From Desulfurellaceae bacterium (GTDB taxonomy: Bacteria; Desulfobacterota; Binatia; Bin18), in NCBI GenBank assembly GCA_021296095.1, contig JAGWBB010000019.1, positions 1-34,712 on the forward strand: DNA of 34,712 nt, read 5' to 3'. Below, piece by piece: positions 5,773 to 32,744 of the stretch. The translations under genes were made by a program, and so were the position numbers. Each line of letters opens with the position of its first letter. The stretch's first letter is position 1. The notes below the pieces were generated by a model. The model did not search any database and was not told the origin of the DNA. It worked only from the letters and a program-made list of their open reading frames with translations.

Positions 5773-5851
5773 GCACTCGTCGCCGGTCGCGGGTCGTGGA
5801 AGCGGCTCACGGCCATGTGTCATCACCATATCCCAACGGGAGGAAGTCGTT

Positions 5852-6826: not shown

Positions 6827-6883
6827 GCTACGAGACGGGCTGCGTCTCAAGCTGAGTGCGTTATGCTCGGGCGCAAGCCCACG

Positions 6884-6913
6884 GAGGAGGGGCCTGCCCC
6901 CCCTCCTCTTATT
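6884..6913 (+). terminator. Attenuator-like hairpin between pstS and pstC
   Basis: GAGGAGGGG (6884-6892) pairs perfectly with CCCCTCCTC (6900-6908) across a 7-base loop and is followed by TTATT. The U-tract is weak, so partial termination or 3'-end protection of pstS mRNA is more likely than full termination. This would give more binding protein than permease. Confidence 0.55.
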
Positions 6914-6969
6914 CCCCCTCCTCACGACGGCGCTAGCGCCCCGTCCGTCACTTCGGTATTGAGAGTAGC

Positions 6970-9303: not shown

Positions 9304-9326
9304 CCGACCGGACTGAGGAAGGACCT

Positions 9327-10955
9327 GTGAATACGCGTTTTTGGAAGAGCGGTGATCCGTTTATCTGGCTGACCGGTGGAGCGCTGGGTTTCAGCCTGCT
9401 GATGATCGCTGCCCTGCTGTGGATTGTGGCGGTCAACGCCCTGGGCTTTTTCTGGCCGGATCGGCTGGTACTGGTCAGCCTCAGCGACGACACCGAGCTG
9501 CTGGGCCAGGTCCGTGACCACGAGCAAGCCCTCCAGACCGGAGACGAACAAGGCGTAACGTACCGGACCCAGTTTCAGGTCGGCAACCGCGACCTGTACG
9601 GAGCGGATTTCCGCTGGGTGGACGACGCCCGGATCCTCGACCGCGCATATCCGGAAGAGGCGGTCTACTTTGAGCGTCTGGAGTGGGGCGCCCTGTTCGG
9701 TTTTCTCAGCTCGGTCAGCGTCGACGGTCAGGTGGTGGCCGAGGGCTTCAGCCAGAGCTGGCAGGCGTTCCAGGCGTTCCACCCCAAAACGAGAGACATC
9801 CGGCATCAGATCGAGCGCATCGAACGCCAGGAAGTCGGGGATATCAACTACGAGATGGAACGGCTGCGTTTGCAGATCCGGGGTATTCAGCTACACGAAT
9901 CCGACCCCCAGCGCGCGGCCCAGGAGATTCGGGCACTCGAACAAGAAGTCGCCGGCTGGCAGCAGCGCTACGAGGAGATCACCGAGCGGCTGTCGGCCTT
10001 ATACCGGGAAAATGCACGCTACGAGATCGCCGTACAGGCCGCCGGCGGGAAGCACAAAAACCTGCCGATGGCCCAGGTCGTGCGGGCCTTTCTGCCTAAC
10101 CGGATGAGTTGGGCCGAGAAAGCCGGCCTGTACGTCACCCGATTCTGGGAGTTTTTCTGGGAAGATCCACGCGAGTCGAATACCGAAGGCGGGGTCTTCC
10201 CGGCCATTTTCGGCACGGTCATGATGGTCATCATCATGAGCCTCGTGGTCGTCCCGTTCGGGGTAGTGGCGGCCCTGTACTTACGCGAATACGCCAAACA
10301 GGGGCCGCTGGTGCGCGCGGTGCGAATTGCGGTCAATAACCTGGCCGGCGTGCCGTCCATCGTGTTTGGGGTGTTCGGCCTGGGCTTCTTCATCTATCTG
10401 ATTGGCGGATCGATCGATTCCTTTTTCTACGAAGAAGCCCTGCCGACGCCAACGTATGGGACCGGCGGGATTTTATGGGCCTCGCTGACCCTGGCGCTGC
10501 TGACCGTACCGGTTGTCATTGTCGCCACCGAAGAGTCCCTGTCGGCCATCCCGCGCGAGTGGCGCGAGGGCTCGCTGGCTCTGGGCGCGACCAAATGGGA
10601 AACCCTGCGTAAAATCGTCATTCCCGGAGCCTTGCCCGGCATTCTGACTGGGGCTATCCTGGCCATGGCGCGGGGAGCCGGGGAAGTGGCACCGCTGATG
10701 ATTACCGGCGTGGTCAAGCTGGCCCCGACCCTGCCGCTGGATGGCCACTGGCCGTTTTTTCACCTTGAGAGAAAGTTCATGCACCTGGGCTTTCATATCT
10801 ACGATGTCGGTTTTCAGTCGCCCAACGTCGAGGCCGCCAAGCCGATGGTCTTCATGACGACCCTGTTGCTGATCGGTATCGTGATTGCGCTCAACCTGAC
10901 CGCCATTGTGGTCCGCAATCGTCTGCGCAGTAAGCTCCGCTTTGGCACCTTCTGA
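9327..10955 (+). CDS. pstA: Phosphate ABC transporter permease PstA, long form
   Basis: A 542-aa permease starting at GTG after a GAGGAAGGA SD, 23 bp beyond the pstC stop. One N-terminal helix (about 12-40) precedes a predicted periplasmic insert of about 240 residues. The insert's second half (about 155-240) is rich in Glu, Gln, Arg and Leu and looks coiled-coil. The permease core starts near residue 291 and has the EAA-type loop [20 protein letters not shown]. Classical PstA is about 280-300 aa. PstC and PstA both carry extensions, so the two probably meet in the periplasm. Inference: they may help dock PstS or sense envelope state. Confidence 0.92.
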
Positions 10956-10972
10956 AAGAGAGGCACGCGAGC

Positions 10973-11827
10973 ATGGACAAAGATCTGTCAGCCTCGACCC
11001 CCGTCCTTGCTGTTCCGCAGCCGACCGGGAACGGCAATGGGACCGCTGCTCCGGTCGCTTCAACGGCTGCCGCGCCGGTTGAAATCCGTATCCGCAACCT
11101 GTGTCTGCACTACGGCAGCAGTCAGGCCCTGTACAACATCGACATGGATATTGAGCGGGGGAAGGTGACCGCCTATATCGGCCCGTCGGGGTGCGGCAAA
11201 TCGACCCTGATACGCTGTCTCAACCGGCTGAACGACCTCGTCGACGGGGTCCGGATCAGCGGCAGCATCACTATCGGCGGCACGGAAATCCTCGACACCG
11301 GCCTGGATGTGACCGAACTGCGCAAAAAAGTCGGCATGGTGTTCCAGAAACCCAACCCGTTTCCCAAAACGATTTACGAAAACATCGCCTACGGCCCACG
11401 CATTCTGGGCATCAGCCAGAAGTCGCGGCTGGACGAGATTGTGGAGAAAAGCCTCAAGGATGCTGCGCTGTGGGAAGAGGCCAAGGACCGCCTGCACGAC
11501 AACGCCCTGGACCTGTCGGGCGGTCAGCACCAGCGCTTGTGTATTGCCCGCACGATTGCGGTCGAGCCCGAGGTGGTGTTGATGGACGAACCCTGCTCGG
11601 CCCTGGACCCGATTGCCACCACAAAAATCGAAGAGCTGATCCACCAGCTCAAACGCAAGTACACGATTGTCATCGTCACCCATAATATGCAGCAGGCCGC
11701 GCGGGTGTCCGATTACACCGCGTTCATGTACCTGGGCAAACTGGTCGAGTTCGGCCCGACCGATAAACTGTTCACCACGCCCGAGAAAAAAGAGACCGAG
11801 GACTACATCACTGGCCGTTTCGGCTAG
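10973..11827 (+). CDS. pstB: Phosphate ABC transporter ATP-binding protein PstB
   Basis: A 284-aa ATPase with all ABC motifs: Walker [10 protein letters not shown] (residues 70-78), signature LSGGQHQR, Walker [12 protein letters not shown] and the switch His in [11 protein letters not shown]. It drives Pi import through PstCA and is part of the signalling complex with PhoU and PhoR. About 35 residues before the conserved core are Pro/Ala/Thr-rich and longer than in typical PstB. The ATG at 10973 has an upstream GAGAGG, so I keep this start. The gene begins 17 bp after the pstA stop. Confidence 0.95.
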
Positions 11828-11828
11828 A

Positions 11829-11878
11829 AAGGGGAACGACGATAACTATCTCATCAGGAAGAGATCATCGTTCCCCTT
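11829..11878 (+). other. Long inverted repeat between pstB and phoU
   Basis: Arms 11829-11843 and 11864-11878 are 15 bases each and complementary except for one position, with core GGGGAACGA/TCGTTCCCC and a 20-base loop. No T-run follows. It begins two bases after the pstB stop and ends 21 bases before the phoU start. An mRNA-stability or processing hairpin is the simplest reading. Confidence 0.6.
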
Positions 11879-11899
11879 GAACACGTACGCGAGGTGCCT

Positions 11900-12592
11900 A
11901 TGCCGTTACACACCGACCGACAGTACGAAGAAGAGTTGCAGGAGTTGCGGGCCAAGGTGTTGGAGATGGGCGGGCTGGTTGAAAAACAGATCGGCGATGC
12001 GATCACCTCGCTCACCCAGCGTGACTCCGAGTTGGCCACACAGACGATTGCCCGCGACCACATGGTCAACTACCTGGACGTGTCGATTGATGAGGCGTGT
12101 ACCCGCCTGCTGGCGCTCCACCAGCCTGCGGCGCGGGATTTACGCTTCATCATGACCAGCCTGAAGATCGGGACCGATCTGGAACGGATCGGCGATATCG
12201 CCCAAAACGTGTGCGAACGGGCGCTGGAACTCAACGAGGAGCCGCCCCTGCGGCCCTACGCCGACCTGCCGCGCATGGCCGAGTGGGCGCGCTCAATGCT
12301 GCGTGACAGTCTGGACGCCTTTGTCCGCGAGGACACCGGTCTGGCGCTGGACGTGTGTCAGCGTGACGATTTTATCGATGACCTGACGGCCGAGGTATTC
12401 GGCCGGATGTTGGGCCGGATGGCCGAAGAGCCCGAAACCGTGGTGCGTTCCACCCGAATCCTGTTTCTGGCGAAATATCTGGAACGCATCGCCGACCACG
12501 CCACCAACATCGCAGAAATGGTCATCTATATGGTGAAGGGCAAGAACATTCGGCATGTCTCGCCGGTCCCAAGCTCAGTCTCAGAGACCTAG
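11900..12592 (+). CDS. phoU: Phosphate signalling complex protein PhoU
   Basis: A 230-aa all-helical protein made of two similar three-helix halves. The metal-site motifs are visible in KIGTDLERIGDIAQNVCE in the first half and LERIADHATNIAEM in the second. PhoU links Pst transport to PhoR and keeps PhoR in its phosphatase state when Pi is plentiful. The ATG at 11900 sits 5 bases after GAGG; an in-frame GTG two codons earlier is less likely. Confidence 0.93.
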   Translation: MPLHTDRQYEEELQELRAKVLEMGGLVEKQIGDAITSLTQRDSELATQTIARDHMVNYLDVSIDEACTRLLALHQPAARDLRFIMTSLKIGTDLERIGDIAQNVCERALELNEEPPLRPYADLPRMAEWARSMLRDSLDAFVREDTGLALDVCQRDDFIDDLTAEVFGRMLGRMAEEPETVVRSTRILFLAKYLERIADHATNIAEMVIYMVKGKNIRHVSPVPSSVSET

Positions 12593-12632
12593 CGCCATGT
12601 CTGGAGGGGAGGAAGCTCTTGTGGAAGGCGCT

Positions 12633-13352
12633 ATGGCCGAGACCCCACGGAAAATCCTGATTGTTGAAGACGAAGAAGATATCCGCAGCCTGGTCCGCTA
12701 CAATCTGGAGGCCGAGGGGTTCGCGGTTGTCGATGCCAGTGACGGTGAGCGTGGCCTGCATCTGGCGGCCACACAGCGGCCGTCGTTGATTATCCTGGAT
12801 CTGATGATGCCGGGCCTGTCCGGCCTGGAAGTGTGTCGTCTGCTGCGCGCTCAGGAGGACACCGCCTCGGTGCCGATTCTGATTCTGACCGCCCGAGCCG
12901 CCGAGCTTGACAAGGTCCTGGGTTTGGAGATGGGCGCGGACGACTATGTCACCAAGCCGTTCAGCCCCCGTGAGCTGGTCGCCCGGGTCAAGGCGATCAT
13001 CCGCCGCGCGTACGGACCGGCCAATGAGCGACCCCACGAGTATTATGAAAAGGGCTGGTTGCGGATCGACTTCGATACCTACGAGGTCTACCGCGACGGC
13101 GAAGCGGTGGGCTTGGGTTTGCGCGAGTTCGATCTGTTGAAATTTTTTGTCCGCAACCCGCACCGCGTCTTTGGCCGCAGCCAGATTCTCGATCTGGTCT
13201 GGGGCCACAACGTGTACGTCGAGCCCCGCACGGTGGATGTCCACATCCGACGGCTGCGTCAACGCGTTGAGCGCGATGATACCAGACCGACGCTCATCCT
13301 GACCGTCCGTGGGGTCGGCTACAAGTTTAACCCCGATGCTTTGGAAGAATAG
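12633..13352 (+). CDS. phoB: Phosphate regulon response regulator PhoB
   Basis: A 239-aa OmpR/PhoB-type regulator. The receiver domain has the acidic pair ED near residues 12-13, the phospho-acceptor Asp56 (IILDLMMPG), a Thr in LTARA and a Lys in TKPFSP. The C-terminal winged helix contains VDVHIRRLRQRVE and the closing LTVRGVGYKF. It should bind Pho boxes such as the one proposed at 4299-4338. Start is uncertain: ATG 12633 has GGAAGG 4 bases upstream, while GTG 12621, four codons earlier, has the stronger GGAGGGGAGGA. Frames further upstream overlap phoU and are unlikely. Confidence 0.93.
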   Translation: MAETPRKILIVEDEEDIRSLVRYNLEAEGFAVVDASDGERGLHLAATQRPSLIILDLMMPGLSGLEVCRLLRAQEDTASVPILILTARAAELDKVLGLEMGADDYVTKPFSPRELVARVKAIIRRAYGPANERPHEYYEKGWLRIDFDTYEVYRDGEAVGLGLREFDLLKFFVRNPHRVFGRSQILDLVWGHNVYVEPRTVDVHIRRLRQRVERDDTRPTLILTVRGVGYKFNPDALEE

Positions 13353-14868
13353 GCTGGGCATCGCCATCGTTGGGTTTCCGAGTCTGGCCTGTGCAGGCCT
13401 GCTTGGCATGCTGGGCTTCTACGCCTTGCCCGACGCCGACCGCCCGGCCTGGTTGTGGTATGCGGCGTTCGGCCTGGGGCTGGGCGCGCCGTTCGGCGCT
13501 TGTGTCCTGAGCCGGAGTGTGGTGCGGCGCCTGGCCGATCTGCGGGCCTGTATCTCTCTCGCCTTGGAGCGCAGTCTGCCGCCCGGCCTGCCGATGCAAA
13601 GACCCGATGAACTCGGCCTCGTAGAAGACGGCCTGGGCCGGTTGCTGCACGCCCAGCACGAGCGGCTGCGGCGTTTACACGACGCCCGCCGGGAGCTCGA
13701 GGTGGTGCTCCAGAGCATGACCGAGGGGGTGATTGTCCTGGACGCGGACAGTCACATTCGCTTCTCCAACCGGGCCGCCCACAATTTCTTGGAGCTGTCT
13801 GAGGAGACGGACTTCCAGGCCAAGCCCCTGCTCGAATTCTCCCGCCATCCAGTGCTCCACGATCTGGTGCGGGCCGTGCTCGACAGCCCACCCGGGGCTG
13901 AGGCGCTGAGACAGGAAATCGAGCTTGAGGGCGAGCAGTCCCGCTCGGTCGCGGTCAGCGCGATCCAGGTGAACGTCTCGCCCCAGTCTCCGGTGTGGCA
14001 CGCGGAACACCCGGCTCTGAACGGACAGGCGGTCAGCGGGGTCATTCTGGTCCTGCACGACCTGACCGAACTCAGGCAGCTCGAAGCCATTCGGGCCGAC
14101 TTTGTGGCCAACGTCTCGCACGAGCTGCGCACGCCGCTGACCGCGATTAAGGGCTATGCCGAAACCCTGCTGAACGGCGCGCTCAACGACCCGCCCATGG
14201 TCACCCGTTTTCTGGCCATCATCGACCGTCACTCAGAGCGTCTCAGCCGTCTGATCGACGATCTGCTGACCCTGTCCGATCTTGAGTTGGGCAAGACCGA
14301 GCTGCGCCATGACCAGCTGGTGTTCGGCCAGCTGATTGACGAGGTATTCGAGCTGGTCAAGGACAAGGCGGCCAGCGGGCAGGTGCGGCTGAGTGCGGCG
14401 GTGCCGGAGTCGTTGCCGTCCCTGTCCGGCGACCCCGACCGGCTCCATCAGGTCTTGCTGAATCTGGTTGATAATGCCGTCAAATACACCCCCACGGGCG
14501 GACGGGTGGCGGTCTCCGCCCGTGTTGCGGCGGCTTCTTCGGTCCCGGATGGGAACGGGGACGGGACAGGCCAGGCCGACCACGGCTGGATGGAAGTCGC
14601 GGTTGCCGATACCGGCTGCGGCATCCCCGAGGCCGACATTCCACGCCTGACCCAGCGCTTTTACCGGGTCGATAAGGCGCGCTCGCGCGAACTCGGCGGA
14701 ACCGGGCTGGGTCTGGCGATTGTCAAACATATTGTGCAGGCCCACGGGGGGTTCCTGCATATCGAGAGCCAGCTCGACCGGGGGACGACGATGCGGGTCT
14801 TTTTACCGCTCGGCGCCCGGGCAGGGTGCGACGCGGTTCTTGAGGCCAGCCCGGACTCAGTGGGCTGA
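13336..14868 (+). CDS. phoR: Phosphate regulon sensor histidine kinase PhoR
   Basis: A 510-aa membrane kinase. Two N-terminal helices (about 6-27 and 35-58) are separated by a very short loop, so there is no real periplasmic sensor, as expected for PhoR. A PAS-like region follows (about 110-230). The HisKA domain has the phospho-accepting His262 (NVSHELRTPL). The ATPase domain has the N box LLNLVDNAVKYTP, G1 DTGCGIP and G2 GGTGLGLAIV. It phosphorylates PhoB when Pst and PhoU report low phosphate. The start overlaps the phoB end by 17 bp without a clear SD, which suggests coupled translation. The 3' end overlaps the opposite-strand gene by 12 bp. Confidence 0.92.
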   Translation: MLWKNRLGIAIVGFPSLACAGLLGMLGFYALPDADRPAWLWYAAFGLGLGAPFGACVLSRSVVRRLADLRACISLALERSLPPGLPMQRPDELGLVEDGLGRLLHAQHERLRRLHDARRELEVVLQSMTEGVIVLDADSHIRFSNRAAHNFLELSEETDFQAKPLLEFSRHPVLHDLVRAVLDSPPGAEALRQEIELEGEQSRSVAVSAIQVNVSPQSPVWHAEHPALNGQAVSGVILVLHDLTELRQLEAIRADFVANVSHELRTPLTAIKGYAETLLNGALNDPPMVTRFLAIIDRHSERLSRLIDDLLTLSDLELGKTELRHDQLVFGQLIDEVFELVKDKAASGQVRLSAAVPESLPSLSGDPDRLHQVLLNLVDNAVKYTPTGGRVAVSARVAAASSVPDGNGDGTGQADHGWMEVAVADTGCGIPEADIPRLTQRFYRVDKARSRELGGTGLGLAIVKHIVQAHGGFLHIESQLDRGTTMRVFLPLGARAGCDAVLEASPDSVG

Positions 14869-16968: not shown

Positions 16969-19900
16969 CTAGAGCCCACGCGGTCGGATATAGCGCTGAT
17001 AGACTTTGGGCAGCTCGGTCGGCAGCGAGGCCACGTCCTCGAGCACCAGATAGCGCGACGGTTCGCACATCTCGCGCAAATAGTCGTGGCCGGCCTTATC
17101 GACCGTCAGGCAGAAGGTCAGCACGCCAGCCTCTTCGGCTTCGCGCAGGGCGACCATGGTATCCCGAATGCCGTACGTTGTGGAGCGCCGGTCCGGCCCA
17201 TAATCCATGTCTTGGGGAAAGCCGTCGCTCAGCAGGATCAACAGCTTGACCCGACACGTCAGGTCTTTGAGTTTTTCCAAGGCGTGGCGCACGGCCGGTC
17301 CCATGCGGGTCGAGCGCTTGGGCTCAATGGCGCCGATGCGCCCCTTGACGGTCGGGGATAGCGCCTCAACGAACGACTTGACATGGTAGAACTCGATGTT
17401 GTCCTTACCCTGGCCCGAGAAACCGTAGATGGCGTAGGAATCGCCAATCTCTTCGAGCGCCTCGGCCATGAGCACCAGGGTTTCTTTGGTGACGTCGATA
17501 ATACGGCGCGGTTTGGGCTGGGACAGGCGTTTCGCAGCCGAGCGTGCATTCCGGTCGGCTTTGTTCCACAGCGGCTGCCAGTCTTCGGGCTCGTCGTCGC
17601 TGTAGTCCCGTTCCACCGCAACCAGCGGTTCATCCGTCGAAGCGCTCATGTCGAGCAGAAACAGGGCGGCCACATCGCGCTCGGTCTGACGCCGTTCGGT
17701 GTACAGCTTGGCCGAGGGCGCGAGCCGGGCGCGCATATCGACCACTGCGGTGACTGCGGCGTTGAGATCAAACTCGTGGCCGTCTTCAAGACCGCGCACC
17801 AGCCGGTACTGTTCCGGTCGGATGCGCTGGAACTCGTGTTTGATAGCCGGGGTGAGGGCCGTGTAGTCGTTCAGCGTCTGGGCAAAGAACTCACCGGCGT
17901 CGCCGCTCAGCACGATCTCCCGCAAACGACACCAGCGGCTCCGATAGTCGGCGATCTGATAGTCCCACTCGTCGTAGTAAAAGGTCAGGCCCTCCTCGCG
18001 CTGAGCGCGGCCGTGGACGGCCGGAAGAGCCGGGTCATTGCCGGCGGCGATGTGCTCCGGGTCGCCCTGGCCCGGCAACTTGCCGTTCAAATCGCTGACG
18101 TACAGCCCCTGGGGAATCAGCCTGTCCTGCTTGCCCTGGCGAATCTGGAGATCGACCCCGGCCTCAATCAGGGCTTTGAGTTCTTCGGCCGACAGGGGGC
18201 TGCCGCCCTGTTCCTCATCCCGTTCGTCCTCCAGCTGTAGCTCGGGTATATCGATCGGCTCCTGGACCGGCGGCGGACTCTCGTCATCGTCCATGTCGGG
18301 ATCGATCAGCGCATCGCCGCTCAGTTTGTCAAACAGAAGGCCGAAGTCCGAGGCGTCATCCGGGTTGAGGCGGGTGGTGGTCAGGGAGGACAGCAGGCGC
18401 AGGTAGAGTTCGGCCGCGCGGGTGGCCGAGTCATACACGTCTGCTGCGGCTGGGTGGTCGGACGGCAGGAGGTCGGACCACAGCGCGCTCAGCGAGACCA
18501 GGGCTTCGGGCAGCAGCGAGGGCAGGGACGCCGCGTCCAGCCACGCCACGTCTGCGCTCAGGCCCCGGTAGGCTGCCGTCAGGCGGGCGTGAACCCGCTG
18601 GGTTTCAATCAATATGAACAGGGCCTCGACAATGTCGGGGTGCACAAAGCAGCGAAAATACTCGGCCAGCCCGCCCACCGGAGCCGCGTCCTCGCGCATG
18701 ACGTGACGGACTGCGGGCGGCAGGTCGGGCCACAGCCGGCTGAGCGAGAATTCGTAGGTGCCGAACTCGCGACGGCCGGCCTGCTGAGCGGCAAAGGCGC
18801 GAAACAGCCGAAAATTCTCGTCATAGGTCTCAAACACCTCGACCCGGCCCGGCAGGGGCAGGTGGCTCGGGGCTTCTTCAAGTGCGGGCGGGTAGGAGAA
18901 GAACTCCTGGCGCCGAATACTGACCGGGCTGCCGGTCAGCATCTGGACATACTTACGCAGCAGTTCCTGGACCTCTTCGAGATCAATGCCGGGAGAAGCC
19001 TGGCGCAGAACCTGAAAGCTGGTGCGCGACTCCAGGCCAAAATAGGCCAGTCCAGCCTCGGGATTGTCGGCGGCGATGCGGGCACCTTTTGTCAGCCAGT
19101 CCTGGAGACCCGTGGGGCCGGCTTCTTCATGTGCCCGGGGCAGGGTCCGAATCAGCGGCGGAATACCGGCCGGAAAGGTGTCGGCGAGGCCGATTAGGCG
19201 GTCTTGCAGGCCAGGCTGCTCAGCCAGGCCGACAGCCTTGGCCACCGGTCTCAGCAACGGCAGCAGGCTGGCAACCGCCGGCGGGTCCGAGCGAATCACC
19301 GGGCTCAGGATGGACAGATACCCAGACCGCAGGCTCGGACTGAGACCCGACAGGACCGGTGGCAGACCGAAAAAAATCTCGGTGGCTGCGGTGGCAGACT
19401 GACTGGCCGCGTGCTGGGCGGTATGCAGAAAGGCCAGGCGCTGGGTCTGATCCAAGGCCTGAAAACCGTCCGGCAAATGCGTATAAAACGTCCACGGTCC
19501 GGAATCCTGGACCAGAGCGCCGAGTCTTGCCCAGGCTGCTATTTCCTCGGGACTCAGCACCGGCAGGGCGGCCGCCGCCGCCGAGAAATACGATACGGCC
19601 AGAAACTCCCCCTTCCAGCCCTTGCAGCCCAACAGCAGCCGGCCCTGCTCGGCCCAGGCGCGCAGGTGTGACCCGGTGGGCAGCTGGCCAAAGAGCGGAG
19701 CCGAGGCTTGAAAAAACTGCGCCCCAAGCCGGCGCGAGACCCGCAGCACCTCACGTCCGATGGCGATCCATTCTGCGGCCCGGTCCAGACCCAGCCGCCC
19801 TACCGATTGGGGCGGAATCGTAAAATAGGCGACCGCCCCGTCGCGTGAGGCCGGTTCCTGGCCGGCCAGGCCCTCGCCAAGGGCTACCCAGCGTCCGAAG

Positions 19901-20112
19901 CCCGTCGCGCCAAACGCCCGCCAGGCGGCCGGGGCTTGCCGACAGAAGGCTTGGGCCAGCGTCAGCGATAGCTCGGCCAGCCGGTCTCCGGTCGTCAGAA
20001 TCGTCTCGCGTGCTTCAGAGGGCAGGGCTTGGAGTTCGGCCAACAGCGCCTGGCCCGGCTCGTCTCCAAGCAGATGGCGGGTATCGAACCACAGGTGACG
20101 GAGGGAAGACAT
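16969..20112 (-). CDS. NorD/CbbO-like VWA domain protein
   Basis: A 1047-aa cytoplasmic-looking protein without a signal peptide. The first 600 or so residues are helical and Leu/Ala-rich, HEAT-like in appearance. An acidic stretch follows ([14 protein letters not shown], then [11 protein letters not shown]). The C-terminal VWA domain has a complete MIDAS: Asp821-x-Ser-x-Ser (DMSAS), Thr in [12 protein letters not shown] and Asp in [13 protein letters not shown]. NorD and CbbO proteins work with a MoxR-type AAA+ ATPase to activate metalloenzymes (NO reductase, Rubisco). No such ATPase or target is in this window, so the client is unknown. It starts 29 bp after the aminotransferase; its own SD is weak. 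Confidence 0.8.
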
Positions 20113-22217: not shown

Positions 22218-22634
22218 TCATTTGACGGTGGCGATGGCCAGGCGGTGCAGACCCTCGGTCCGGGCCAGATCCATCACGCCGACCACCCGGCCGTGCTGGA
22301 CTTCCTGGTCAGCGCGGACCACCAGGGTGACCTCGCTGCCCTTTTCCCGCTCGGCCTGGAACACGTTCTGGAGCTGCTCAAGGCTGGTCTCCTGTTCGTT
22401 CAGAAACAGGCCGCCGCCCTTGTCCAGACTCACCGTGAGGCGTGTCCGTTCCACCTGAGAGGCGGCTGACGACGCCTTGGGCAGGCTGACATCGACCCGG
22501 CCCTCTCTGGTCTGATTAAACGTGGCCAGAAAGCTGAACGTAATGAAGAAGAAGATGAACATGTTCATGATGATGTCGGTCAGCGCCACCGAGTCGAGGT
22601 TCGGGCTGGGCTGTGGGTGCTTGCTAAACTGCAT
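22218..22634 (-). CDS. ExbD/TolR family biopolymer transport protein (second copy)
   Basis: A 138-aa protein with a short cytoplasmic N-terminus, one membrane helix (about 20-42) and a periplasmic domain. The helix begins with the key proton-pathway Asp in VALTDIIMNMF, and unusually runs on as a Phe-rich stretch (FIFFFITFSF). ATG 22634 is chosen because it gives the usual N-terminal length; the gene overlaps the preceding exbB by 11 bp. It would be the rotor-side partner of the 22624-23286 ExbB protein. It differs clearly from the other ExbD in the cluster, so the two motors are not a recent duplication. Confidence 0.85.
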   Translation of the reverse strand: MQFSKHPQPSPNLDSVALTDIIMNMFIFFFITFSFLATFNQTREGRVDVSLPKASSAASQVERTRLTVSLDKGGGLFLNEQETSLEQLQNVFQAEREKGSEVTLVVRADQEVQHGRVVGVMDLARTEGLHRLAIATVK

Positions 22635-23286
22635 CGCTGAGGGGCTCCCGGGGCTGAGCTTGGGTGAGCATATCAATCAGGGTCTCGGTGTGCTCTTCGG
22701 TCAGCCGGGTCAGCCGTTTGACCCGGGCGGTGAGGTGATTATAGATCAGATAGTACGGAATCGTGACACTCAGACCGGCGGCGGTGGTGATCATGGCTTC
22801 GTAGATACCACCGGCCAGGATATTGATCGTGATCTGGTCGCCCATCATTTCCCAGCTCATGAAGGCGCGGATCAGACCGATGATGGTGCCCAGAAATCCA
22901 AGCATCGGGGCCACCCCAATCACCGCCGCCAGCACGCCCAGATAGGACTCCAGGGCAGCGACCACATCCCCACCTAAACGTTCCAGACGGCGGGTCAGCT
23001 CGCTGTGGCCGCGGTCCCGATACACAATGGCAGCCTCAAACAGCCGGCTGAGCGGGCTGGTGTATTCACGGCAGACGCCCAGGGCGACCGAGATATTGCC
23101 CTCAGCCAGCTGGGGTTCGATACGCTGGTTGAGCGTGCTGAGGTGGGTACGGAACCGCCACAGCGACCAGAACTTGGCCAGCACAATGGCAAAAGCAACG
23201 ACGGACAGGACGGCGATGATGAACAGCACCACGCCGCCCTTGGCCAGAAAGAGCCAGATTCCCTGATCTGTTGGTGAGACGGTGAT
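22624..23286 (-). CDS. ExbB/TolQ/MotA family proton channel (second copy)
   Basis: Three membrane helices are visible: one near the N-terminus (LFLAKGGVVLFIIAVLSVVA), one in GVLAAVIGVAPMLGFLGTIIGLI and one in EAMITTAAGLSVTIPYYLI, with a cytoplasmic helical domain after the first. With ExbD it forms a proton-driven motor. The start is unusual. The first ATG/GTG/TTG in frame is GTG 23232, which cuts into the first helix and removes the amphipathic segment (TDQGIWLFLAKGG) that family members have. The only sensible upstream candidate is ATC at 23286, seven bases after AAAGGA; this is the start I give, with 23232 as the conservative alternative. The frame closes at 23299-23301. Confidence 0.7.
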   Translation of the reverse strand: MTVSPTDQGIWLFLAKGGVVLFIIAVLSVVAFAIVLAKFWSLWRFRTHLSTLNQRIEPQLAEGNISVALGVCREYTSPLSRLFEAAIVYRDRGHSELTRRLERLGGDVVAALESYLGVLAAVIGVAPMLGFLGTIIGLIRAFMSWEMMGDQITINILAGGIYEAMITTAAGLSVTIPYYLIYNHLTARVKRLTRLTEEHTETLIDMLTQAQPREPLSDAV

Positions 23287-23429: not shown

Positions 23430-25889
23430 TCAGACGCCGCAGTTCTTGTTCACAAAATCCTGGATCTGTTTTTTGAGTTGCTGGTCTCCCAGCCGGTTCA
23501 GCATGGTGCGGGTGCCCCGGGCGGTCCGACAGCCGGCCTGGGCGTTGCCCAGCGAAACGTTCAGCACGGCGACCTCGTACGAGCCGCGGAACCAGATCGG
23601 GTCCCCGGCCTGCGAGTCTCGGAGCATCTCCTCCCAGTAGGCCAGCGCCTGTTCCTTGTTCCCGTTGACCTCGGCGATACGGGCCAAGCCGGCCAATGAG
23701 ACCAGCGAATACGGCCCGTCCTGGAGCTGGGTGTACAGGGCGGCCGCCTGGCCGTAGTCTCTGACATCCAGATACAGCTGGGCCAGCTCGTATTTGAACT
23801 TGTCCTGGGACTCGTCTGCGGCAAAGTCCTGACGCGTAATCTTGTCGCTGTACAGGCGGGCCAGGGTGCGTTTGGCGGCCTGGAGGTTCTCCCTGTCGTT
23901 CTGTTTCTTCAGGGTCCGAATATCCCGCACCAGGACCTGATCGAGCGCTGTGAGCAACTCAAGACGTTTGTCGGTGTCATAGGTGGCAAAGATGGCCGCC
24001 ACATTCTTTTCCAGCTCCTCAAAGCGGCCGGCCTTCTCCAGCGTCACCAGACGGACGCGGGCCACGGTTTCAAAGGCGTCTTTATGGGCCGGGTAGTGTT
24101 GCTCGAAGTCGTGCAGCAGGTCGGCGATCTGGGTGGCGTTGGCGTCGGTGTCCTCGCTGAGCAGGACCGCGTGCATGAACTTGACCCGACCGCGATAATT
24201 CCTGAGATTCTCGCGTTTTTTGCCCTTGGGGTTCTGCTTTTCAAACGCGGCGCTGCTCTGCTCAAAGGCGACCAGGCCGTCTCTGATGCCTTGTTTGAGG
24301 TCGTCGGGGCTGATGCCCAGGTCTTTATCGGGCTCTTCTTCCCACTGTTCGTAGATCGAGAAATAGCTTTGCAGGGTGGCAAAATCGGCCCGGAAGCGAA
24401 ACTCGGTACTGCCGCGGACGCGCCGATACGAGTTCACGGCTTCGAGATAGTTTTCCTGGCCGTGCTGATACTCACCGAGTCGAAAATGCGCCTCGTGGAC
24501 GGCTTTTGAGCGGTTCTTGGGATCGCGTTTGATCAGGTCTCTGGCCGCGTTCACATACAGGCGGCCGTTGGTCTGGTTCTGCGACTGGGCGAACAGGGCC
24601 TCGGCAGCCTTGAAACGCAGGTAGGCGGCGTTGACCGCATTTTTGGACGATCCGCCGTTGAGGTAGCTGTCCAGGGTGGTGATTGCCTGGTGCAGCCTGC
24701 CGGTTCTGAGCAGCGCGTCGCCAAGGTAGTAGCGGGCGTCCTGTTTATGGCGCCGGGCGCGTGAATCGTCCGACTCCAGCACCGTCCGTAGGACGGGGAT
24801 GGCCTTGGCGTACTGGCCCTTGCGAATAAAAGCCGCCGCGTTGTGCCACGGCATATAGGGGTCGAGGGCCAGCTTTTCGTCTTCGTTCAGGACCTGGGCC
24901 AGCAGGGTGTCGGCCTTGGCTCTCCACGTATCGTCGGCGTTTTCTGACTCTTTGACCCCCAACACCAGGCCGATGGCCCGTTCCCGGGTCTTGCGGCGCT
25001 GCGTGCCGCGTTCCTGCTGGCTGCGCTCAAACAGACCGCTGGCTTCGGCCAGCTGTTGTTCGAGCAGGTCTTCGGGTGAGGGGCCGCTGCGTTTGCCGCG
25101 CTTGGCCAGACGCCGGGTCTCTGCCAGCGCGTTGGTGACCTTGGCGCGCATGCTGGGGCTGGTCGCCTTGTCTTTCAGCAGCGCCTCAAAGTCGTTGATC
25201 GCCCAGTCATACTCGCCCAGTTCGCGCTCGCTCAGGGCGCGGCCGAACAGGGTCTCGCGTTTGATGCTCGACGCCGGGCCGGAGGCAAACTCGGAGAAGC
25301 CGTTAATCGCGTCTTTGAGCAGCTGGGCCTGGCGCTCGCCCTCATACACGAACGAGCCGACATACTTGAGCCAGTTGAGAAAATACAGCGCACGGGCCGC
25401 CACATCCTGGGCGTCTCTCCACCGCGCCTCTTCGTACAGGGCCTCCAGGTCGCCGTCGACGGCCATGATGTCCTGCATCCAGCGTTCCATGACATCGGTG
25501 TTGGCCTTGTAGATGGCTTGCAGGGGCGCGCTCAGGTCGGTGTAAACCTGCCGCACGCTCGCGCGCTTGGTCTTGACCGCAGTGGCCAGATCCGAGGCGG
25601 CCACAAACTCCATGGCCAGCGGACCGATAACCCCGATGGCGTTGAGCTGGCCAGCCTTGCCGCCGGTCCTCAACTGGTTGGCCCGGTTTTTGGCCTGGGC
25701 GGCGCGGGGCGCCAAGTCCGATATCGTTGCCGCGTGGCCCGGGCCTGGGGCGGCCAGGCCGGACACCAGGCAACACGCGCCGATGAGGAGGGCGGCATAC
25801 GGAATGCGGAACCGAAAGGGACAGACAAGACGGAACGCGGAGCGCGTTGTGAGCCCACGGTTCATCGTGCCGACTTCTGCCTTCATCAT
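23430..25889 (-). CDS. Large exported tetratricopeptide-repeat protein
   Basis: An 819-aa protein with a signal peptide (hydrophobic core AALLIGACCLVSGLAA, cleavage near GHAA). The rest is almost entirely helical, with TPR-like repeats such as RHKQDARYYLGDALLRTGRL near residue 375 and KYELAQLYLDVRDYGQAAAL near 690. It should lie in the periplasm or on the outer membrane as a protein-binding scaffold. ATG 25889 has GAGGAG upstream. It sits between two ExbB/ExbD pairs and next to the VWA protein, which suggests it is the passive partner pulled or gated by one of the motors. No catalytic motif is seen. TonB2-type systems also include TPR proteins, but I see no close match. Confidence 0.75.
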   Translation of the reverse strand: MMKAEVGTMNRGLTTRSAFRLVCPFRFRIPYAALLIGACCLVSGLAAPGPGHAATISDLAPRAAQAKNRANQLRTGGKAGQLNAIGVIGPLAMEFVAASDLATAVKTKRASVRQVYTDLSAPLQAIYKANTDVMERWMQDIMAVDGDLEALYEEARWRDAQDVAARALYFLNWLKYVGSFVYEGERQAQLLKDAINGFSEFASGPASSIKRETLFGRALSERELGEYDWAINDFEALLKDKATSPSMRAKVTNALAETRRLAKRGKRSGPSPEDLLEQQLAEASGLFERSQQERGTQRRKTRERAIGLVLGVKESENADDTWRAKADTLLAQVLNEDEKLALDPYMPWHNAAAFIRKGQYAKAIPVLRTVLESDDSRARRHKQDARYYLGDALLRTGRLHQAITTLDSYLNGGSSKNAVNAAYLRFKAAEALFAQSQNQTNGRLYVNAARDLIKRDPKNRSKAVHEAHFRLGEYQHGQENYLEAVNSYRRVRGSTEFRFRADFATLQSYFSIYEQWEEEPDKDLGISPDDLKQGIRDGLVAFEQSSAAFEKQNPKGKKRENLRNYRGRVKFMHAVLLSEDTDANATQIADLLHDFEQHYPAHKDAFETVARVRLVTLEKAGRFEELEKNVAAIFATYDTDKRLELLTALDQVLVRDIRTLKKQNDRENLQAAKRTLARLYSDKITRQDFAADESQDKFKYELAQLYLDVRDYGQAAALYTQLQDGPYSLVSLAGLARIAEVNGNKEQALAYWEEMLRDSQAGDPIWFRGSYEVAVLNVSLGNAQAGCRTARGTRTMLNRLGDQQLKKQIQDFVNKNCGV

Positions 25890-25958: not shown

Positions 25959-27191
25959 TTAGCTCAGGTCTCGCAGGAAGCGTTCCATCTCCGTTTCCCA
26001 GCGCGTGCCAAAGGTCAGGACGATGATCTGCTTGGTCAGCTGTTTCTCGTCGGTCAAGGGGATGAACTCGCCGCCGCCGGCGGTGGCGATCGAGGCCATG
26101 GTGTCCCGGAACTCCTGGTAGAAGCCGGGCAGCGGAGATGGGCTAAAGGCGATATTGGTCAGATGCGCAGTCTGTTTCCACAGGGAGCGCTCAAAGTCTT
26201 CGTGCATCTTTTCGGCCAAGTCCAGGGCGCTCACATAGCCGCCCCCGGCCCGGAAGCTCTGAGCCAGATTCAGGATATTGCTGACCGACTCGGGGTGTGG
26301 AGACGAGCCCGACACGATGACCAGAATCCGGCGCGATTTCTTGCGCCAGCTGAGGTCGTGGATCGCCACATCAACGCCCTCGTACACCGCCTCGGGCCAG
26401 TCACCCCCACCGCCGGCTTCGAGGTTGGCCAGAAAACCCTGTAGCTTCGAGGTCGAGAAGCTGAAATCGACCCAGCGGGTGACGTAATCCTCACCCCGGT
26501 CCCGGTAGGCCACAATGCCGACCCGGGTCGTATCGACCATGGTTTGGAGGGACTCGATCATGTTGCTGAGCCGCTCGCGAACCGAGTCGATCACGAACTG
26601 CATGCTGTCGGTGGCGTCCACGACCAGGGCGACATCAATGCCGACCCGCCGCAGCCCGCCGACCCGGTCGCCGAAGTCGCCGCCGGCCACCCCGTCGAGC
26701 GAGCCGCTCAGATTGGTGATCTGGGTGGTGATACCCTTGAGATCGTCAGAAGTCCGGCCGACCTGAATGGTGACCGGGCTGAAGGAGTTACTCAGAATCG
26801 GCATGGCGGTCGGCTTGATGGCGGCCACCCGGCCGGCCAGCGGTGGTGGGCCGGACGACCATTTCTTGACTTGTCTGTGCGGTAGCATGTCCATCGACAA
26901 GGCGCCGGGCAGGTCTCTGAGGGACGGCTCGCCCTCCCAGTCGTCCGGGTCTTTCTGGTCCTCGGCCTGGGCGGCCGGGTCCTGGGCGAACGGCAGGGCG
27001 GTCACTTTGATGAGGTCCTGACCCTTCTGGATCACGGTCACCGCCGTGGTGGCAAACACCGACAGCAGCAGCAGGTGGGCGACGGTGGAGACGGCAAACC
27101 AGCGCGCGTTGGTGCCGAACCGGCCTCGGGACAACCACAGGTCTTCCTGGGGGTCGGTCACGCCGGTGCGTTCTTTTTCGGCGGAAGCCAT
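25959..27191 (-). CDS. Membrane-anchored VWA protein with TonB-like N-terminus
   Basis: A 410-aa protein. A cytoplasmic head (1-30) precedes one membrane helix (about 31-53) with Ser35-x3-His39 (VSTVAHLLLL). This is the same spacing as the Ser16/His20 pair that TonB uses to engage ExbB/ExbD. A Pro- and Asp-rich linker follows, then a VWA domain (about 185-390). The MIDAS start is Asp192-Ala-Thr-Asp-Ser196, followed by VAYRDRGEDYVTRW and GGGGDWPEAVYEG. The third MIDAS acid appears replaced in VSGSSPHPES, where relatives have GDAPPH. The start has an AAGGAGG SD. The gene directly follows exbD, where tonB would be expected. No classical TonB C-terminal domain is present. Confidence 0.8.
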   Translation of the reverse strand: MASAEKERTGVTDPQEDLWLSRGRFGTNARWFAVSTVAHLLLLSVFATTAVTVIQKGQDLIKVTALPFAQDPAAQAEDQKDPDDWEGEPSLRDLPGALSMDMLPHRQVKKWSSGPPPLAGRVAAIKPTAMPILSNSFSPVTIQVGRTSDDLKGITTQITNLSGSLDGVAGGDFGDRVGGLRRVGIDVALVVDATDSMQFVIDSVRERLSNMIESLQTMVDTTRVGIVAYRDRGEDYVTRWVDFSFSTSKLQGFLANLEAGGGGDWPEAVYEGVDVAIHDLSWRKKSRRILVIVSGSSPHPESVSNILNLAQSFRAGGGYVSALDLAEKMHEDFERSLWKQTAHLTNIAFSPSPLPGFYQEFRDTMASIATAGGGEFIPLTDEKQLTKQIIVLTFGTRWETEMERFLRDLS

Positions 27192-27236: not shown

Positions 27237-27656
27237 TTAGCCCGCCCCCTGCTGGGCGGCGATGGCAATCTGGGTTGCCCCGGCCCGCTGGGCCGCCGAC
27301 AGAATCTTGACCGCCTCGCCCAGGATCACCGATTGGTCGCCCTCCAGGACGACCGGGACATCCTGCATCGTTTCGATGATCGGCCGCAGATACAGTTCAA
27401 GCTCAGCCAGGGCGACCGGCTGATTGTTGACGAAAATTTCTTTCTGGGGGGTGACCGTGACGATGATCTGGCGCGGTTCGGACTCGGTTTCCTGGACCCG
27501 CGGCAGATCGATCGTGGCGCCCGACTGGACCATCGCCACGCTGGTCACCATGAAGATGATCAGCAGGACGAGAAAGATATCGGTCAGCGGGGTGATGTTG
27601 ATCTCGGACATGACCTCGTCACGCCCGCCCCTCTTTTTGGGACCACTCATGGCCAT
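27237..27656 (-). CDS. ExbD/TolR family biopolymer transport protein (first copy)
   Basis: A 139-aa protein with a cytoplasmic N-terminus (SGPKKRGGRDEVMSEINITP), one membrane helix with the conserved Asp at its start (PLTDIFLVLLIIFMV) and a periplasmic domain. The sequence is close to canonical ExbD. ATG 27656 follows AAGGAG, and a second ATG is two codons further. It lies 25 bp after exbB and 45 bp before the VWA gene, so the three are almost certainly one operon. It uses the proton gradient with ExbB to energise a TonB-like partner. Confidence 0.9.
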   Translation of the reverse strand: MAMSGPKKRGGRDEVMSEINITPLTDIFLVLLIIFMVTSVAMVQSGATIDLPRVQETESEPRQIIVTVTPQKEIFVNNQPVALAELELYLRPIIETMQDVPVVLEGDQSVILGEAVKILSAAQRAGATQIAIAAQQGAG

Positions 27657-27681: not shown

Positions 27682-28329
27682 CTAAGCGGACTGGGCCGCT
27701 TCTCTCCTGCCGATGCGGATGGCGTCGATGATGCGGTCAGAACCAATCGTCATGGCCGTATCAATCCGTTCCAGCTTGGTATTGAAATAATTGTAGAAGA
27801 TAACGGCGATGATAGCGACCGCCAGACCGAGCGCCGTGGCCACCAATGCCTCGGAAATACCGCCGGCCACGACGGTAAACCCGCCGCTGCCCTCGACCGC
27901 CATGCTTTGGAAAGATTTGATAATCCCGACCACCGTCCCCAGCAGGCCGATGAACGGCGCGCTGACGCCGGTAGTGGCCAGAATCCAGATCGCGCCCTTG
28001 AGCCCTTCGGCCTCTTCCAGGCGACGCTCTTCGGCCAGGCTTGACAGCTGCTCGGTGGATTCGTCCTGCTGGCGGGCGATGATCTCGCGGAACACCCGTC
28101 CGGCGGGCAATTTGTTCTCGGCTTGGCTGGTCTCCAGGGCGGTGTTGAAATCACCCTGCTGCAAGGGACTCACCAGGTCTCTGGCCAGATGCAGGGTTTT
28201 TGTCATGATCCCGCCCAGGTTCCACAGCCGTTCCAGAATGATCGTGATACACACCACTGACATGATGATAAGCGGGTAGCTGACATACCACCCCTGGTGA
28301 ATCATATCCATGACGCTTAAACCTTCCAC
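27682..28329 (-). CDS. ExbB/TolQ family proton channel (first copy)
   Basis: A 215-aa protein with three membrane helices (about 17-33, 118-138 and 152-178) in the ExbB layout. Recognisable stretches are YPLIIMSVVCITIILERLW, IGLLGTVVGIIKSF and EALVATALGLAVAIIAVIFY. It forms the pentameric stator/rotor shell around ExbD. The start is GTG after AGGAGG; ATG 28311 is an internal alternative. It is the first gene of the cluster, about 20 bp downstream of a terminator-like hairpin. Confidence 0.9.
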   Translation of the reverse strand: MEGLSVMDMIHQGWYVSYPLIIMSVVCITIILERLWNLGGIMTKTLHLARDLVSPLQQGDFNTALETSQAENKLPAGRVFREIIARQQDESTEQLSSLAEERRLEEAEGLKGAIWILATTGVSAPFIGLLGTVVGIIKSFQSMAVEGSGGFTVVAGGISEALVATALGLAVAIIAVIFYNYFNTKLERIDTAMTIGSDRIIDAIRIGRREAAQSA

Positions 28330-30061: not shown

Positions 30062-32503
30062 TCAGACACCCGTGAAGTGATAGGTCACCTCCAGGCCGAA
30101 GACCCGCCCTTTCATCAGCGGTGAGAAGGTGCCGGCGGGCAGCTGGATGTCGCTCCCGAACCGCGTGGAGTCCAGCAGGTTCTTGCCGTACAGGCCGACC
30201 ACCCACTGACCATCGTTGATGTGGATATCCAGCCCGGCCTGCAACATTTTCTGCTGGCGGTTGAACCCGGTGTTGTCGTCGTTGGCATACTCTTTGTCGC
30301 GGTAGGCGTAGGTGACGCGCGAGGCGAGCCGATAGCGGCTGCCGACCCGCAGCGTGTGCAGCAGACCCAGGCTGTAGGTCCAGCGCGCGGCCCGGGGCGG
30401 TTTGAGATCCTCGTCCTTTGCGTCCAGCCTGCCGTCGCGGTTGAGGTCGAACTTGACCGCGGTATAGTCCGGCTCGACGTAGCCGAGCGAGCCGAGCGCG
30501 ATCAAGCTGGGGGTGAGGGCAAACATCCCCTCCACTTCCAGGCCCCAGAATTCGGCGTCGGCCGTGTTCCGAATTACCTGCACGATGTTCTGCACGGTTT
30601 GGATGGTCGGCCTGCCGTCCACAAAAGTGATGACGGGCAGACCGGTGTCCGGGTCCGGGACGGGCAGGTTCTCGCCGAAACTCAGCTCCCGTTGCAGATC
30701 GTCGACGAAGTTATAGAAGAACGCCGCGTTGAGGCGGCCGCGGCTGCCGAAGGTTTTCTTGAAGCCGATCTCGAAACTGTCGATCCGTTCTTCGTCGAAC
30801 GCCTCGGCGTCAAGATCGCGGGCAGCCTTCAGGCCGAGCCGCTCGAGCAGGGCGATCTGGGCGTCCGGCAGACCCCTGGTCACATCGTAAAATGAGTCGC
30901 GCAGATTATAGCCGCCGGACCGGAAGCCGCGTGCCCAGTGGGTGTACAGCAGTGTCTCGTCATCAAACCGGTAGCTCAGCCCGATTTTGGGCGACAGATT
31001 ATTCCAGCTCGCCTCGTCTTTGAAATGGCTGGGGCAGTCGGGGCCGTCCACGATATGACACCGGGTGCCTCCGTTGCGGAGGATATTCGTAATCTCGGCG
31101 GCTTTCTCTTCATGGGTGTAGCGCAGTCCGGCGGTCAGCGTCAGCCGCTCGGTCAGATCGTAGTCTCCGGCCATGAACAGCCCAAAGGTCTCAACCGCAT
31201 AGATGCCGCCACCGTTGAATTCCGGCATGCCGCCAATATTGTCGCCGAAAAACCGCTGCTCATGATAGTCGAGATCGTTCTGAAAATAGTAGAAGCCGGT
31301 GGTCAGGAATAGGCGGTCGAGAAACACGCCGCTGTAGCGCAGCTCGTTGCTGAACTGCTCGGCGGCCTGGGCGCCGCCGCCGTGGAAGAAGGTGAGCGGC
31401 GTCGAGTCGGCATCGCTCAGCGCATCTCCCGCCCCCTCGCGCCAGCCGAAGATATTGGTCAGCGTCCCCTTGCCGAAGGGAATGTCCCAGTCGGCCCGGG
31501 CGTTGAAGAAGTTGATATAGGTCTTCAGGAAGCCGTCTTCGTTGACGGCGAAGTCGTGGCTGTCGCGGTCGAAGTTGAAAAGCGGATGGGACAGGCCGGA
31601 CCCGTTGGTATGGTTCTGGCCCGCCGGGCCGTCGCCGTCGAGGTCCTGATATTCGTAGCGCAGCGTCAACCGCAGGGTGTCCAGGGGCTGCCAGGTGACG
31701 ACTGGCCGCAGCATCAGCGTATCCTGGGCGCCGAACGCCTTGCCGTCGTACTCATTCTCAAACCAGCCCTGGTCCTGGTTGGAATAGACTGTGAAGCGGG
31801 CGCGCAAAGTCTTGGTCAGCGGGGCGTTGAGCGTGCCCGAGACGTACATGTTGGGCGCCTTGCCGCCGCCTTCGACCGTGCTGCGAACCGTGGCCTCATA
31901 GCGGTCGGTGGGGAGCTTGGTGTTGACCAGGATGGCCCCGCCTATCACATTGCGACCGAACAGAACGCCTTGCGGGCCGCGCAAGACCTCGATGCTCTCC
32001 AGGTCGAAGGCGTCGTACAGCACCCCCGCGTTCGTCCCCAGGTAGATGCCGTCAACGAAAACGCCGACCGTCGGATCGATGGACGGAATCGAGCTGTTGA
32101 TGCCCAGGCCGCGCATCGAGAAATTCGCGATACCCCGCCCCACACCAGCGTCTTCGAGAGCCACATTCGGCATGCTGATCGACAGGTCACTCAGGTCGCG
32201 CAGCTTGAGGGCGTCAATCTGTTCGGCGTCGAAGGCGGTGATCGACAGCGGTACGTCCTGACTCGGCTGAGATCGTTTCTGAGCGGTCACGACCACATCC
32301 TCCAACAGGAAGGTGGTGTCGGAGGCGGCCGCTTCAGCTTCCGATCCGGTGTCTGCCGGTCTGGGAGTCTGGGCCTTGGCCGGCAATGCAACAGCCCCCA
32401 GCACCAGGACGACGCTTAGCGCAAGCAGACCCAGGACGGCCGGCGCCGACATTGCACACAGGTCCGCCTGTTGGTTTGCAGCCGTCTTGGCCACAGGATG
32501 CAT
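30062..32503 (-). CDS. TonB-dependent outer-membrane receptor
   Basis: An 813-aa protein. A signal peptide (hydrophobic core VLGLLALSVVLVLG, cleavage near PAKAQ) is followed by a TonB-box-like LEDVVVTAQKR. The plug domain contains FSMRGLGINSS, VGVFVDGIYLG and ESIEVLRGPQGVLFGRNVIG, and a 22-strand-type barrel follows. Such receptors import chelated iron, cobalamin, sugars or other bulky ligands; the ligand here is unknown. The barrel ends in VTYHFTGV, so the usual final aromatic residue is three residues in. Start choice is uncertain: ATG 32503 and ATG 32452 both leave a usable signal peptide, and neither has a strong SD. No tonB gene is seen nearby. Confidence 0.88.
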   Translation of the reverse strand: MHPVAKTAANQQADLCAMSAPAVLGLLALSVVLVLGAVALPAKAQTPRPADTGSEAEAAASDTTFLLEDVVVTAQKRSQPSQDVPLSITAFDAEQIDALKLRDLSDLSISMPNVALEDAGVGRGIANFSMRGLGINSSIPSIDPTVGVFVDGIYLGTNAGVLYDAFDLESIEVLRGPQGVLFGRNVIGGAILVNTKLPTDRYEATVRSTVEGGGKAPNMYVSGTLNAPLTKTLRARFTVYSNQDQGWFENEYDGKAFGAQDTLMLRPVVTWQPLDTLRLTLRYEYQDLDGDGPAGQNHTNGSGLSHPLFNFDRDSHDFAVNEDGFLKTYINFFNARADWDIPFGKGTLTNIFGWREGAGDALSDADSTPLTFFHGGGAQAAEQFSNELRYSGVFLDRLFLTTGFYYFQNDLDYHEQRFFGDNIGGMPEFNGGGIYAVETFGLFMAGDYDLTERLTLTAGLRYTHEEKAAEITNILRNGGTRCHIVDGPDCPSHFKDEASWNNLSPKIGLSYRFDDETLLYTHWARGFRSGGYNLRDSFYDVTRGLPDAQIALLERLGLKAARDLDAEAFDEERIDSFEIGFKKTFGSRGRLNAAFFYNFVDDLQRELSFGENLPVPDPDTGLPVITFVDGRPTIQTVQNIVQVIRNTADAEFWGLEVEGMFALTPSLIALGSLGYVEPDYTAVKFDLNRDGRLDAKDEDLKPPRAARWTYSLGLLHTLRVGSRYRLASRVTYAYRDKEYANDDNTGFNRQQKMLQAGLDIHINDGQWVVGLYGKNLLDSTRFGSDIQLPAGTFSPLMKGRVFGLEVTYHFTGV

Positions 32504-32744
32504 GGTTCTTACTGTCGTATTCGTGGGTGTCCACACGCCCATAGGGCTATAGCGTGCGCTGCGCAGCCGGACAAGGGGGAAATGGATCGGGCGCGGCTCC
32601 TTCTGTTCCGCAGGGTGACGTAACCGACCGAGAGCATCTGCCAATTCGATTGATCACCGGGAGCAGCATGTTGCAAAGTCGTGTTGCTCTGCCACCTGCT
32701 GGGCTGTATCGTTCCTCTGAAACCCGTCTGATGGAGACACTCCA

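Follow-up and report, generated by a model that had tools for sequence, protein, structure and literature searches.

Motors that use an SxxxH transducer carry energy from the inner membrane to the outer envelope, and of these only the Ton and Tol systems are well understood. Williams-Jones et al. (2025, PMC12204202) proposed force transducers with a vWA domain, the first class of which comes from Tichowtungia. As described in the text of that paper, proteins of the first class carry a transmembrane helix with Ser and His of the SHLS type, a predicted motor-box strand behind it, a disordered or proline-rich linker of about 100 residues and a vWA tip, and their genes lie adjacent to tolQ/tolR-like genes with a TPR gene nearby. 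The same text presents AF3 complexes of the vWA class, in which the helix is set on the motor via the His, and describes the motor box as the strand with which TonB and TolA presumably engage ExbD and TolR. It gives the function of the class as unknown and notes that a deletion phenotype has been reported for none of its members, which counts against the transducer reading proposed below.

The window, the whole stretch of 34,712 nucleotides analyzed here, carries on its minus strand the gene order PadR, ExbB1, ExbD1, VWA, TPR, ExbB2, ExbD2 and SpeE-like. The VWA gene (25959-27191, minus strand), recognized from its open reading frame and a Pfam VWA match, encodes 410 residues and starts from the ATG at 27191, with a GGAGG-like ribosome site ahead. 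It directly follows exbB and exbD, and thus occupies the tonB position assigned to it in the original prediction, which had been made from the sequence alone. We propose that its product is a force transducer driven by the proton motive force and similar to TonB and TolA in action, with a probability of about 0.8. Elsewhere in the window, the genes at 5696-14868 look, by reading, like a cluster for the uptake and sensing of phosphate (PstS, PstC, PstA, PstB, PhoU, PhoB and PhoR).

The AF2 model of the VWA protein consists of a transmembrane helix, a disordered stretch, a confident VWA domain at residues 172-395 and a last helix. The helix (27018-27110, minus strand; residues 28-58), which is the sole transmembrane segment as judged from AF2 and conservation, reaches a pLDDT of about 90 at residues 31-50, lacks acidic residues and contains both Ser35 (27089-27087) and His39 (27077-27075), as anticipated for a single helix with the Ser-x3-His spacing of TonB. 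The longer SHLS motif (S-x3-H-x6-L-x3-S) is half present, since Phe occupies position 46 and Ala position 50, and its Leu and last Ser are not retained among homologs, which counts against the transducer reading. The helix is followed by a putative short strand (26994-27014, minus strand; residues 60-66, LIKVTAL), which resembles a motor box by analogy with those of TonB and TolA; its alternating hydrophobic pattern is common to the homologs (alignment columns 63-66), and the AF2 monomer model has no strand there. Residues 68-171 (26679-26990, minus strand) make up a disordered linker of about 100-110 residues, with the pLDDT below 50 over most of residues 60-171. The VWA domain itself (26007-26678, minus strand) was assigned by Pfam, AF2 and Foldseek. 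The PF00092 match (E 1.7e-9) is above the cut-off, and a TonB match was not found in the Pfam scan of the protein, consistent with the predicted exchange of the TonB tip for a VWA fold. A Foldseek search with the VWA model returned BatB (3ibs, E 1.1e-9) as the best match, with integrin I domains next. An unrelated VWA protein of 1047 residues is encoded at 16969-20112, with a DMSAS site near its C-terminus and a weak Pfam VWA score; an NCBIfam match was not found for this protein, which we take to resemble the NorD/CoxE type.

One-helix VWA proteins are common and BatB is the best fold match, in favor of the SxxxH spacing being a coincidence in a common kind of tethered VWA protein, of which YfbK and BatA/B are examples. 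The Ser and His conservation, the clade structure and the motor linkage argue against this explanation. Searches detected homologs of the VWA protein in 32 of the 38 relatives and in 42 of the phylum's 297 genomes, the weakest matches being other VWA proteins. The distribution obtained by a collection scan with alignment A3 (A1 was too diverse) is a lower bound. The nearest relatives among the matches listed were from Candidatus Binatota MAGs, with 97% identity over 325 residues. When the helix was aligned in the 35 homologs that cover it, which include members only 23-30% identical to the window's protein, His39 was invariant and Ser35 was kept in 34, with one Ala, and these two were the only strongly conserved helix columns.

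The association of the motif with motor genes was then counted after removal of near-copies. All 32 motor-linked VWA proteins with a transmembrane segment have [S/A]-x3-H within it, versus 16 of the 46 VWA proteins without a linked motor, a difference whose Fisher p-value is not readable as a probability because the sequences are related. These 16 consist of 12 proteins of one Planctomycete clade, three incomplete loci (L022, L031 and L032) and one stray match (L106); a longer stretch for L022 (L145) carries TPR, ExbB and ExbD genes downstream. In the tree, all of the SxxxH-VWA domains except L106 fall in a single clade (support 96/83), and ExbB and ExbD adjoin every member with enough flanking DNA, apart from the FHA-containing Planctomycete branch. 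Hence, in the window's own branch, neither of the two outcomes named in the original prediction as refuting it was observed, neither a lack of Ser/His conservation nor a protein found mostly without ExbB/ExbD, and an ordinary tethered VWA protein is, with the His invariance and motor linkage found across the clade, effectively refuted there and highly improbable overall.

The Planctomycete clade (L071, L072, L074-L077, L082, L084-L087 and L108) has the SxxxH helix and the VWA domain in proteins of about 600-900 residues, and in L074 an FHA domain lies ahead of the transmembrane segment. Linked ExbB/ExbD genes were not found at the loci of these 12 members, which speaks against the transducer reading; ExbD is encoded elsewhere in all 10 of the genomes searched from this clade. 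Another Planctomycete relative, L069, has VWA, ExbB, two ExbD and TPR genes, corresponding to the PVC type.

The motor genes preceding the VWA gene encode ExbB1 (27682-28329, minus strand; MotA/TolQ/ExbB family, PF01618, E 3.6e-31), the putative subunit of the motor pentamer, and ExbD1 (27237-27656, minus strand; ExbD/TolR, PF02472, E 5.3e-26), that of the motor dimer. ExbD1 starts from the ATG at 27656, with an AGGAG site ahead, and has its transmembrane Asp within LTDIF. In the cryo-EM structures from E. coli, Ser16 and His20 of TonB contact Ser34 and Trp38 of ExbB, and Trp38 touches Pro190 (PMC12215075). Residue alignment of ExbB1 with E. coli ExbB equates these three ExbB positions with Ser24, Ile28 and Ile174, respectively. 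Among all VWA-linked ExbBs that cover the sites, the equivalent of Ser34 is kept and that of Trp38 is always replaced. ExbB1 and its Binatota-type relatives carry Ile, Val or Leu at the position of Pro190, where the other VWA-linked ExbBs and ExbB2 carry Pro. ExbB1 thus has neither of the two residues that connect TonB with the pore in E. coli, and the signaling route of the VWA motor cannot be identical to the E. coli one, which counts against the transducer reading. The window's own genome offers internal controls: the TolQ adjoining an SxxxH TolA has both the Ser and the Trp, and the ExbB adjoining a TonB with A-x3-H has Ser at the contact site. At a further locus, G000:C50 (L128, L133 and L136), the TonB lacks SxxxH and its two ExbBs have Gly and Thr instead of the contact Ser, and this combination makes a natural control.

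VWA domains often serve as scaffolds or co-chaperones, and the motor coupling of the VWA protein is a prediction; both points would fit a passive inner-membrane scaffold, or a regulator of the motor such as a plug or a stator control, that carries no force. The TonB-like helix contact, the disordered linker of about 110 residues and the ordered tip represent the layout of a transducer, however, and the ExbB contact Ser is conserved, which makes the passive role unlikely. The motor anchor of the original prediction, read here as one of TonB/TolA type, is supported by the conserved Ser and His, the linked ExbB/ExbD, the matching ExbB Ser and the motor-box-like strand, and we retain the force transducer as the preferred reading.

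The VWA domain has a predicted metal site. Of the MIDAS pattern (DxSxS, a loop-2 Thr and a loop-3 Asp), the first element is present in the form DxTxS, as DATDS in loop 1 (26604-26618, minus strand; residues 192-196), as had been noted earlier, and among the 37 homologs Asp192 and Ser196 are invariant and Thr194 is kept in 36. At the usual position of the third MIDAS Asp, in loop 3, the protein has Gly295 (26307-26309, minus strand). The altered third metal acid was therefore correctly anticipated, but it is not peculiar to this protein, as the position is Gly in 18, Asp in 14 and Ser in five of the 37 homologs. By comparison, Asp264 in loop 2 (26400-26402, minus strand) is always acidic, with Asp in 32 and Glu in five. 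Since Gly and Ser form the majority at position 295 and the acid at 264 is always kept, Gly295 is a trait of the family. Judging from these alignment columns, Asp264 may substitute for the lost loop-3 acid and complete the predicted metal site. After the VWA core, the C-terminal tail (25965-26012, minus strand) contains Phe394-Gly395-x2-Trp398, which is invariant in all 37 homologs.

The gene directly downstream of the VWA gene encodes an exported TPR protein of 819 residues (23430-25889, minus strand; Pfam TPR), modeled by AF2 as an all-helical superhelix with a pLDDT of 85. A TPR gene of about 800 codons adjoins nearly all of the motor-linked VWA members, either before or after the motor genes, and this co-occurrence spans at least Binatota, deltaproteobacterial lineages and a Planctomycete, in line with the suggestion that the TPR protein next door is the partner. 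Most of the TPR relatives have signal-peptide-like N-termini and many have two conserved C-terminal Cys residues, and a PDB fold search with the TPR model returned general TPR superhelices only. We give roughly even odds to the TPR protein being the direct load of the VWA domain. Alternatively, the load could belong to the outer membrane or the cell wall and be encoded at another locus, with the TPR protein acting as an adaptor, as TPR proteins often do, or independently. The partner of a VWA domain is not readable from sequence, which leaves room for such a load, whereas the presence of the TPR gene beside nearly all motor-linked members in differing gene orders argues for a closer connection; we consider the alternative possible, somewhat short of an even chance. 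A TonB-dependent receptor is also encoded near the module (30062-32644), and it was dropped as a candidate partner because it was not seen at the corresponding position in L049-L051, L055 or L056, the relatives compared.

A second motor pair follows the TPR gene, ExbB2 (22624-23232, minus strand; E 4.3e-26), which belongs to a separate ExbB lineage, and its partner ExbD2 (22218-22676, minus strand; E 2.9e-24), both from Pfam matches and both of uncertain membership in the module. The pair (22218-23232) lacks a transducer gene of its own and lies next to the spermidine-synthase-like gene. The ExbB2/ExbD2/SpeE arrangement is syntenic in several other Binatia, where a BisC/TorA-type molybdopterin oxidoreductase gene comes after the TPR gene, and outside those Binatia the pair is not part of the VWA module. 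Its place directly after the TPR gene in the window, its synteny and the Ser34 equivalent of ExbB2 would suit a role in powering the VWA protein, alone or alongside ExbB1/ExbD1. Such a role is quite unlikely, however, as VWA modules elsewhere have a single motor only, and the oxidoreductase gene separates TPR from ExbB2 in the other Binatia.

With ExbB1/ExbD1 as the motor, the transducer could work as follows. By homology, Ser35 and His39 would seat the transmembrane helix against the outside of the ExbB1 pentamer, and the strand after the helix would pair with the ExbD1 dimer. Proton flow would turn ExbD1, tension the linker of about 100 residues and thereby pull the VWA domain. While we infer this docking and energy coupling from sequence homology, the subsequent steps are more conjectural: the VWA domain might use its predicted Mg2+-type site to grip, reversibly in the original prediction, a periplasmic partner, most likely the co-encoded TPR superhelix, which perhaps links to the cell wall or the outer membrane in the process served.

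The VWA module does not stand in for TonB or TolA. The same genome contains a Tol locus on C1 (TolQ, a TolA-like protein and TolB) and two further TonB/ExbB loci, and its TonB_C proteins are encoded away from the VWA locus. Because both Ton and Tol are thus present, the module appears to be an additional energized system. We tentatively extend this to a widespread energized system that spans the envelope as a third alongside Ton and Tol, a conceivable reading but not the favored side of an even bet. In it, the motor of a four-gene module (ExbB, ExbD, VWA and a TPR protein of about 800 residues) would pull on a grip that holds a periplasmic scaffold in a metal-dependent way, and would signal without the Trp38-Pro190 contact of E. 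coli. If a module that combines a VWA tip with a conserved TPR partner is widespread and shares a genome with Ton and Tol, it would point to a further energized envelope process, and it offers specific residues and a partner for testing. The window's protein is a clear example from the little-studied phylum Binatota.

Among known systems, CglB of Myxococcus gliding motility reportedly has a VWA domain too and belongs to machinery that a TolQR-like motor powers (Islam et al. 2023, cited in PMC12204202). It differs from the window's VWA protein in being an adhesin of the cell surface, whereas the latter is predicted to be the transducer in the inner membrane. The idea of a motor-pulled VWA protein was already proposed in 2025 (PMC12204202), and the protein described here, matched by the compared features from the text of that paper apart from the motor-box strand, is a further member of the vWA transducer class, from Candidatus Binatota. 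Like the first-class proteins as described there, it has the Ser35/His39 helix, a disordered linker and a C-terminal vWA domain without the C-terminal domain of TolA or TonB, with adjacent motor genes and a TPR gene. Unlike the Tichowtungia class, it is preceded by one exbD instead of a tolR pair, and its TPR gene is followed by another exbB/exbD pair. Binatota is outside the phyla listed in that text, which does not state Binatota members, that one genome can have Ton and Tol as well, that ExbB Ser34 is invariant where Trp38 and Pro190 are lost, the D264/G295 pattern or the FHA-TM-VWA Planctomycete branch; its supplement may hold some of these. The second class of the paper (PMC12204202), the TPH-vWA proteins, also combines a transmembrane segment with a vWA domain beside a tolQ-like gene. 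As described, those proteins lack SHLS and tolR/exbD and have a transmembrane Asp, whereas the window's protein has SxxxH and an accompanying exbD but no transmembrane acid, and the TPH-vWA type was ruled out for it by the missing Asp. Finally, the protein resembles TonB and TolA in its helix motif, motor genes, motor-box-like strand, linker and periplasmic tip, and differs from them in that the tip is a VWA domain instead of TonB_C and that separate TonB and TolA proteins are present in its own genome.
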